IMG/VR virus record: IMGVR_UViG_3300020469_000302
Span: 1-21,586 of that record
Length of the DNA: 21,586 nucleotides
Direction: 5' to 3' (one strand)
Origin: a virus
In this document: piece by piece, positions 7,895 through 9,085 of the stretch
How the letters are laid out: each line of letters opens with the position of its first letter
How positions within the stretch are numbered: the first letter of the stretch is position 1
Made by a program: the position numbers and the translations under genes
Notes under the pieces: generated by a model
Seen by the model: the letters and a program-made list of their open reading frames with translations, nothing else
Told to the model about the DNA's origin: nothing
Database searches by the model: none

Positions 7895-7923
7895 TTGACA
7901 AAACCAAAAAGAATAAATATAAT
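7895..7923 (+). promoter_or_regulatory. Consensus sigma70 promoter for gene 32
   Basis: TTGACA at 7895-7900, exactly 17 bases, then TATAAT at 7918-7923: a perfect consensus for host sigma70 polymerase. The predicted start is near 7930, giving a leader of about 82 nt before the gp32 ATG. It is the strongest early-type promoter in the window, as expected for an abundant ssDNA-binding protein. Confidence 0.88.
7912..7919 (+). promoter_or_regulatory. Late promoter motif (AATAAATA) overlapping the sigma70 -10 box
   Basis: AATAAATA overlaps the first two bases of TATAAT. It matches 7 of 8 bases of the late consensus and would start transcription a few bases upstream of the sigma70 start. This may allow gene 32 to be transcribed both early and late. 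AT-rich composition makes chance occurrence possible. Confidence 0.4.
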
Positions 7924-7925
7924 AG

Positions 7926-8003
7926 TAGATAATGTTAACTAGAACATTATTTAATTATAGGCTAACATATACTAACACAGGCTAACATAGGCTAATATAG
8001 GAG
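7926..8003 (+). promoter_or_regulatory. gp32 mRNA leader: 5' hairpin plus four 10-nt repeats (candidate autogenous operator)
   Basis: ATAATGTT at 7929-7936 and AACATTAT at 7943-7950 form a perfect 8-bp hairpin with a 6-nt loop, extendable to 11 bp with one G-U pair. It would begin at the predicted 5' end of the mRNA. From 7961 to 8000 there are four tandem 10-nt units with core CTAAyA, the third and fourth reading GCTAACATAG and GCTAATATAG; they run straight into the AGGAG ribosome binding site at 7999-8003. T4 gp32 represses its own translation by loading from a 5' pseudoknot onto an unstructured repeat-containing leader. The same layout is seen here, so the role is inferred by analogy. Confidence 0.6.
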
Positions 8004-8011
8004 AAAACATT

Positions 8012-9046
8012 ATGGCGACTTTAGCAGAAATAAGAGCAAAACTTCAAGAACAAGAAGTAAAACGTTCACCAAATAGTTCAGGAGGCGACAACGCAATTTA
8101 TCCGTTCTGGAACATTCCTGAAGGCACAACAGCAACACTAAGATTTTTATCAGATAAAGATCCAAACAATACATTCTTTTGGGTAGAAAGACAAATGATC
8201 AGATTACCATTTGCTGGTATCAAAGGATCATCTGAAGCAAAACCAACTACAGTACAAGTTCCTTGTATGGAGATGTGGGGAGAACCATGTCCAGTATTAA
8301 GCGAAATTCGTCCATGGTTTAAAGACCCAAGTTTAGAAGACATGGGTAGAAAATATTGGAAAAAACGTTCATATATTTTCCAAGGTTTTGTTGTTAACTC
8401 TCCAATGGAAGAAGATTCAACACCAGAAAATCCAATTAGACGTTTTGTAATTAATCCGTCAATCTTTAACATCATTAGATCAGCATTGATGAATCCAGAT
8501 ATGGAAGATCTGCCAACTGATGTTGAAAAAGGTAGAGACTTTAAATTAACCAAAACTCAAAAAGGTGGTTACGCAGATTATTCAACATCAACTTGGTCTT
8601 TCAAAGAAAGAACAGTAAGTGATAGTGAACGATCAGCAATTGACTCTCATGGACTACATAATTTAGGCGATTATCTTCCTAAGAAACCTTCTGCAGAAGA
8701 AGTAAAAATAATTGCAGAAATGTTTAAAGCATCTGTTGATGGTGAATTATATGATGAAAGCAGATTTGGTCAACATTATAGACCAGCTGGCATGGCATCA
8801 TCACCAAGAACAAATAGCAATAGTGCAACAACTACAACAGCGGCACCAACAGCGGCACCAGTGGCTCCAGTAGCACCTGCGGCACCAGTTGTTGAAACTG
8901 CGGCACCAGTTGTTGAAACTACTACTGCTACAGCACCTGCGGCACAGCCAGAAGTGGCAACTGCTACAGCAACAGCAACAGATGATAAGTCAAAAGCATC
9001 AGCAGATGATATTTTGGCTATGATTAGAGCTAGACAAAGTAAGTAA
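8012..9046 (+). CDS. 32: Single-stranded DNA-binding protein gp32
   Basis: 344 residues (T4 gp32 is 301). It binds ssDNA cooperatively in replication and recombination and partners UvsX, UvsY and helicase. The ATG has AGGAG 8 bases upstream. The N-terminus MATLAEIRAKLQEQE is the cooperativity region; the OB core spans about 25-245 with YPFWNIPEGTTATLRFLSD, FFWVERQMIRLPFAG, CMEMWGEPCPV, YIFQGFVV and FVINPSIFNIIRSAL. Of the four T4 zinc ligands (H64, C77, C87, C90) only two Cys seem kept here, so zinc is probably not bound. The C-terminal 80 residues are an Ala/Pro/Val/Thr linker with a tandem repeat, ending in a helix SADDILAMIRARQSK in place of the long acidic T4 tail. Confidence 0.93.
   Translation: MATLAEIRAKLQEQEVKRSPNSSGGDNAIYPFWNIPEGTTATLRFLSDKDPNNTFFWVERQMIRLPFAGIKGSSEAKPTTVQVPCMEMWGEPCPVLSEIRPWFKDPSLEDMGRKYWKKRSYIFQGFVVNSPMEEDSTPENPIRRFVINPSIFNIIRSALMNPDMEDLPTDVEKGRDFKLTKTQKGGYADYSTSTWSFKERTVSDSERSAIDSHGLHNLGDYLPKKPSAEEVKIIAEMFKASVDGELYDESRFGQHYRPAGMASSPRTNSNSATTTTAAPTAAPVAPVAPAAPVVETAAPVVETTTATAPAAQPEVATATATATDDKSKASADDILAMIRARQSK
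8879..8920 (+). repeat. Two exact 21-bp tandem repeats in the gp32 linker
   Basis: The 21-bp unit GCGGCACCAGTTGTTGAAAC plus T occurs at 8879-8899 and again at 8900-8920 without mismatch, encoding AAPVVET twice. An exact in-frame duplication suggests recent linker expansion by slippage or unequal recombination. Confidence 0.9.
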
Positions 9047-9061
9047 AATCGTATATAGTAT

Positions 9062-9085
9062 TAGTGCATGAGCAATCATGCACTA
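9062..9085 (+). promoter_or_regulatory. Intergenic hairpin between gene 32 and uvsX
   Basis: TAGTGCATG at 9062-9070 pairs with CATGCACTA at 9077-9085, a perfect 9-bp stem with a 6-nt AGCAAT loop. There is no T-run after it, so it is not a standard terminator. It may stop 3' decay of gp32 mRNA or attenuate read-through into uvsX. The uvsX AAGGAG follows at 9094. Confidence 0.6.

Follow-up and report, generated by a model that had tools for sequence, protein, structure and literature searches.

The window analysed here, the whole 21,586-nt stretch of IMG/VR record IMGVR_UViG_3300020469_000302, is a 21.6-kb phage record with genes for a terminase, a structural protein, a gp32-like single-stranded DNA-binding protein (SSB), UvsX, and UvsY-like and UvsW-like proteins. 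In the leader of the SSB gene (7926-8003), a hairpin is followed by four 10-nt units that run in register into AGGAG, with the gene at 8012. The question raised by this locus is whether the leader is an operator through which the SSB represses its own translation. Such an operator is described for gene 32 of T4 and RB69: behind a 5' pseudoknot it has a tract of lesser structure that contains UUAAA/UAAA repeats and the ribosome site, gp32 nucleates on the pseudoknot and from there spreads over this tract, and the proteins of both phages tolerate diverged targets (PMC535899, PMC3014915). A 2010 review calls for study of gp32 autocontrol across diverse T4-related phages and describes RB49 as a phage without such a leader (PMC3014915). 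No paper on gp32 leaders in jumbo phages was found in the literature searches made. The features of the locus are as follows.

7895-7900 (+): -35 hexamer TTGACA, 12/12 consensus together with the -10
7914-7919 (+): TAAATA, overlapping the -10
7918-7923 (+): -10 hexamer TATAAT, 17-nt spacer from the -35
7926-7936 (+): 5' arm of the hairpin, from sequence reading and covariation
7943-7953 (+): 3' arm of the hairpin, from the same evidence
7960-7999 (+): four 10-nt units of GGCTAACATA type, from sequence reading, Tandem Repeats Finder and conservation
7960-7969 (+): unit 1, GGCTAACATA
7970-7979 (+): unit 2, TACTAACACA
7980-7989 (+): unit 3, GGCTAACATA
7990-7999 (+): unit 4, GGCTAATATA
7999-8003 (+): Shine-Dalgarno AGGAG, in register with the repeats
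8012-9046 (+): gene of a gp32-family single-stranded DNA-binding protein, from profile and predicted fold; ATG at 8012

The product is a remote gp32 homologue

The product matches PHROG 1192 'single strand DNA binding protein' with E 3.8e-70. The Pfam gp32 model gives the window protein 23.4 bits, under its cut-off of 26.8, and matches 33/37 members of the family at E <=0.01. When the family profile was used as query, the T4 and RB69 gp32 chains were found at E ~5e-5. With the predicted structure (mean pLDDT 73) as query, six hits fell under E 0.001; every one is a gp32 chain of T4 or RB69, and the best has E 3e-8. The last cysteine of the CPVC of T4 is replaced in the family alignment. Judged by profile and predicted fold, the SSB is a gp32 homologue, although a remote one, and the gene was correctly named by the original prediction. 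The C-terminal region (window 8835-8981) is a repetitive Ala/Pro/Thr-rich linker of low confidence in the predicted structure; its DNA carries tandem repeats of 12, 18 and 21 nt.

Promoter and expected transcript start

A sigma-70 promoter (TTGACA-17-TATAAT, 7895-7923) that agrees with the consensus at 12/12 positions precedes the SSB gene. From sigma-70 spacing the gp32 mRNA would start at about 7928-7930, so that the outermost 2-4 pairs of the hairpin could fall outside the RNA. The claim that the mRNA begins with the hairpin thus stands as regards an inverted repeat at the expected start, but perhaps not for these outer pairs. We take the TAAATA at 7914-7919 to resemble the T4-type late promoter core. 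It is found close to the -10 in 36/36 leaders of proteins at least 65% identical to that of the window, and at the offset of the window in 35 leaders in all. If it works as such a late promoter, it could start transcription a few bases earlier and take in the outer hairpin pairs; a T4-type late promoter sharing its start region with the sigma-70 promoter is possible. ATAAATA occurs in 10/237 against 1.0 expected, an expectation that leaves in the A/T-rich intergenic bias, and the reversed-motif control is void because the motif reads the same in both directions.

Hairpin and repeat array in the window

The hairpin has a perfect 7-bp core (TAATGTT/AACATTA, 7930-7936/7943-7949) that can be extended to 11 bp (7926-7936/7943-7953) with one G-U pair; its description as perfect therefore applies to the core and not to the longer stem. 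The CTAAyA core is present in 4/4 units at 7960-7999, which lead into AGGAG at 7999-8003 as had been predicted. Tandem Repeats Finder scores the array at 62, and an equally good array is held by 10/200 dinucleotide-shuffled windows. By itself, the repeat thus has p~0.05 for a window of such size; its position and conservation lift the array above chance. An Rfam search with the leader gave no match, and by-eye inspection of the window leader for a pseudoknot saw no pairing of the loop with downstream sequence.

The repeat tract had also been called unstructured. In absolute terms this is correct, since the predicted fold is weak (-3.5 kcal/mol for 65 nt). Relative to shuffles, however, the array is no less structured: the mean z of 42 leaders was -0.58, which means a little more structure. 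Shuffles of the region, with hairpins included and then without them, showed no selection for lack of structure beyond what composition gives. The operator reading is weakened by this result, and a different explanation gains from it, namely that the leader serves ribosome loading. The 5' hairpin would protect the RNA end, the A-rich AGG units would act as a standby or enhancer site, and a very abundant protein would be made with no repressor involved. The hairpin near the start site and the A-rich tract beside AGGAG suit such a leader, as does a hairpin ahead of uvsX. We consider this explanation rather unlikely, because conserved GGCW units with a preferred 10-nt spacing are unexpected in a generic standby site, and because, among 39 noncoding promoters of the relative G018, an array of this kind is found at gp32 alone, although high expression is required of other phage genes too.

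The hairpin between gp32 and uvsX (window 9062-9085) has 10 bp and a GCAA loop, and close relatives carry hairpins of altered sequence at the same spot. It could be an intercistronic or a uvsX 5' element. As uvsX has one too, a hairpin may be a more general 5' feature.

An ATG at 7932, within the hairpin of the window and near relatives, opens a frame of 17 codons that might be read as a leader peptide. However, neither length nor residues of this frame are conserved (4 codons in L013 and 8 in L014, for example), and other groups, such as L036, have no such ATG. The upstream frame was rejected for this non-conservation, and a leader peptide is scarcely credible here.

GGCW units are conserved in relatives

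The sequences came from five IMG/VR searches, from eight named phages and from the window. All 335 were scanned; 332 had a gp32 match from the first residues and 330 a usable ATG, 22 had less than 110 nt upstream, and 223 distinct leaders remained. GGCW was counted in 67 nt, i.e. the 75 nt before the start codon minus the last 8. At least two units were present in 193/223 distinct leaders as against ~64 in dinucleotide shuffles, and at least one in 214/223 as against ~160, counts that are not independent events because the leaders are kin. All leaders (38/38) of proteins at least 65% identical to that of the window had at least two. As a control, the next gene of the same loci was used: two or more units were found in 13/178 uvsX upstream regions versus 156/178 gp32 leaders. 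The 9/223 leaders without any GGCW are those of seven of the eight named phages (Phosso has the motif) together with L232 and L246.

The mode of the unit spacing is 10 nt (81 cases against 2.8 expected), the spacings run from 6 nt to above 20 (up to 30), and at least two successive spacings of 9-12 nt occur in 29/223 leaders. It is mostly the closer relatives that have strict tandem 10-nt arrays; conservation across the wider set is of an A-rich leader whose GGCW units commonly stand 9-20 nt from one another. A period near the footprint of a gp32 monomer had been proposed. With units commonly so far apart, and strict arrays in so few leaders, the footprint argument is loose. In leaders L212, L224, L236, L239 and similar ones, a conserved ATCTAA..TTAGAT hairpin lies between GGCAAC units, as if to bring these units together.

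The array is nearly confined to the gp32 leader. Within the first 80 loci, exact GGCWAACATA was found 41 times in 28 loci, in 41/41 cases a few tens of nt upstream of gp32 and on the + strand. The looser GGCWAAYATA occurred 26 times in 17 longer records, 18 of them at the gp32 leader by coordinate comparison. In G018 (242.6 kb), three GGCWA within 45 nt are met only at the gp32 leader, among 531 occurrences, and of the 39 noncoding promoters only that of gp32 has more than two GGCW downstream, the highest count; the array is thus near-unique in this genome. In some records GGCWA-GGCWA-GG stands at many other places as well, apparently inside coding sequence, and is not unique there. G018 also carries an alphaproteobacterial-type tmRNA and an AdoCbl-II riboswitch (L359:12221-12515 (+), L358:2165-2243 (+)), pointing to an alphaproteobacterial host.

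The hairpin covaries

For a survey of stems, the 180/223 leaders were used that have a promoter scoring at least 10 and a length of 45-115 nt. The best stem near the start site scored 16.1 versus 10.5 in shuffles; the score exceeded the shuffle mean in 93% of leaders and all 20 shuffles in 41%. Two alignments, A3 (17 sequences, the group of the window) and A4 (20 sequences), were hand-picked from two groups (26 and 34 leaders) whose stems were recognisable, a choice that biases them towards structure; in the group of 34, 11 gave no stem, being shortened by the trimming pattern. In A4, 7/8 pairs show compensatory changes on both sides (28 cells) and 91% of cells pair; its covariation score was reached by 0/500 shuffles, and slid versions pair in 19-53% of cells. 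In A3, 4/11 pairs changed on both sides (18 cells, 0/500 shuffles) and 93% of cells pair. RNAalifold recovered the same stems of A3 and A4 unaided. The hairpin alters its sequence yet keeps its pairs, and is a conserved, covarying 5' folded RNA element. The original prediction had named non-conservation of the repeats in relatives as evidence against itself; hairpin and repeats both turned out to be conserved, and the layout of hairpin, repeats and ribosome site is kept in most relatives of this marine giant phage.

These data also bear on a role at the DNA level, either as a transcription-factor operator (direct repeats spaced by one helical turn, with an inverted repeat where transcription starts) or as replication iterons. 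The period of 10 in the window is as expected for such an element, and in some relatives the inverted repeat reaches the edge of the -10. But the unit spacing varies from 6 to 30 nt, G-U is kept at one pair of the A3 stem in 11/17 sequences, hairpin and ribosome site flank the units, which are on the transcribed strand, and no GC-skew switch occurs at gp32 in G018. A DNA-level element is very improbable. The iteron or origin reading in particular was rejected, with no support from the spacing spread or the GC skew of G018.

Leaders of distant relatives

By-eye reading of leaders from several named phages found a hairpin followed by A-rich repeats of other sequence. Atu_ph07 has GTAGA/TCTAC and then ACAATTTAGC-like units of 9-10 nt, and CBB, GAP32, XbC2, BF and Kaldavass have a 25-nt hairpin with two AACAAAGAARCAAA-like units (both by eye). 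For the hairpin of the enteric jumbo phages, 1/7 pairs covaries in 5 sequences, which is not significant. PA5oct has a candidate T4-like H-type pseudoknot, formed by AGTTTTGC/GCAAAACT (8-bp stem 1) with AACCC/GGGTT as stem 2 and with an A-rich tract behind it; the five relatives sampled hardly differ in this region, with no covariation readable.

A second array heads a candidate noncoding RNA

In G018 and G003, two A/T-rich, promoter-adjacent noncoding GGCW arrays were found, that of gp32 and that of a noncoding RNA. The stretch behind the second array is 78% identical between G018 and G003, with no conserved reading frame evident on comparison. Two representatives are as follows.

L356:2950-3380 (-), i.e. 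G018:C1 about 102950-103380: candidate structured noncoding RNA of ~450 nt with a 5' GGCW array
L348:7538-7961 (+): candidate structured noncoding RNA of ~450 nt with a 5' GGCW array

By a pattern scan, 15 contigs have this RNA; in each, three or four units at 9-14 nt spacing stand directly after a sigma-70-like promoter, with no evident ribosome site. RNAalifold on 8 sequences gave 60 pairs, 9 of them changed on both sides, and a model of the RNA core matched 9/37 records. Five of the weaker core matches have the Rfam family Polynucleobacter-1 RNA immediately upstream; the distant copies adjoin that RNA and extend past its Rfam model. By these matches, Polynucleobacter-1 RNA, which a 2010 paper reported from Burkholderiales and from fresh water or estuary samples (PMC2864571), is placed in jumbo-phage contigs. 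The distant copies have neither promoter nor array, and in L238, L210 and L180 such a copy occurs together with GGCW units before gp32.

Since GGCW arrays also head a noncoding RNA, the array need not concern gp32 translation. Another RNA-binding factor, such as a phage repressor of the RegA kind or a host S1, cold-shock or Csr protein, might control gp32 and bind the 5' end of the noncoding RNA. The 15 contigs with arrays at that end, and the pairing of gp32 with this RNA in G018 and G003, are what such a factor would produce. The TAACTGA repeats of Beggiatoaceae and cyanobacteria, direct heptamer repeats just before start codons, have been proposed as post-transcriptional sites of this sort; they resemble the present units in being short and in their place, but belong to many genes per genome as against one gene and one noncoding RNA here, and the abstract links them to neither a hairpin nor an SSB (PMC4679880). 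We regard another factor as unlikely, because the deep conservation of the array sits at gp32, where in some genomes the units persist even when the RNA copy is distant and has none. In the one clade where two transcripts share the units, the sequences would fit either SSB binding to both or a different shared factor. A bolder and distinctly doubtful proposal is that in this jumbo-phage lineage the gp32-like SSB prefers a sequence in RNA, GGCWAACAUA, and that in part of the lineage the ~450-nt RNA with its 5' units is a second target or decoy which tunes free SSB and hence gene 32 translation.

A putative autogenous operator of the gp32 type

On balance, the leader at 7926-8003 is probably a lineage-specific form of the T4 gp32-type autogenous translational operator, with binding of the SSB predicted. 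This reading is the most likely one because the locus matches T4/RB69 in how its parts are ordered and spaced and in having a homologous protein. When single-stranded DNA is short relative to protein, free SSB would dock at the 5' hairpin; further monomers would be laid along the A-rich GGCWAACATA units until the in-register Shine-Dalgarno and start codon are covered and translation stops. Once single-stranded DNA appears, the SSB would leave and translation would resume. Binding to the leader, the direction of the effect and the hairpin as docking point are all what we infer from the layout. On the other side, gp32 is known as a sequence-nonspecific protein, for which a conserved GGC-bearing motif is odd.

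The gene 32 operators of T4, T2 and RB69 share with this locus a gp32-family product, a folded 5' element ~60-85 nt before the start codon and a repeat-bearing tract over the ribosome site; in T4 and RB69 this tract is less structured (PMC535899, PMC3014915). They differ in that T4 has a pseudoknot and UUAAA repeats, whereas the window has a plain hairpin and GGCUAACAUA units of period 10 (PMC535899, PMC3014915). The gene 43 operator of T4/RB69 combines a plain upstream hairpin with sequence overlapping the ribosome site and serves autogenous control by a replication protein, to which the control proposed here may be likened, but it belongs to another protein family and has no repeat array (PMC3014915). 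The T4-like logic of the original prediction stands for the order of structured 5' element, repeats and ribosome site (PMC535899, PMC3014915); the rest is putative. We do not claim membership in the T4 operator class: a homologous protein and a 5' structure are present, the window shows no evident pseudoknot, its repeats are of other sequence, and binding is putative. That the leader is an independent form had also been suggested. Repeats and hairpin do differ from T4, but because the proteins are homologous such a form is indistinguishable from divergence of one ancestral operator.

The gp32 leaders collected here amount to a large natural series: their layout is constant, and the repeat sequence changes by lineage. 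They open to testing how an SSB that is supposed to be blind to sequence recognises its own mRNA, and in what way operator and protein co-evolve.
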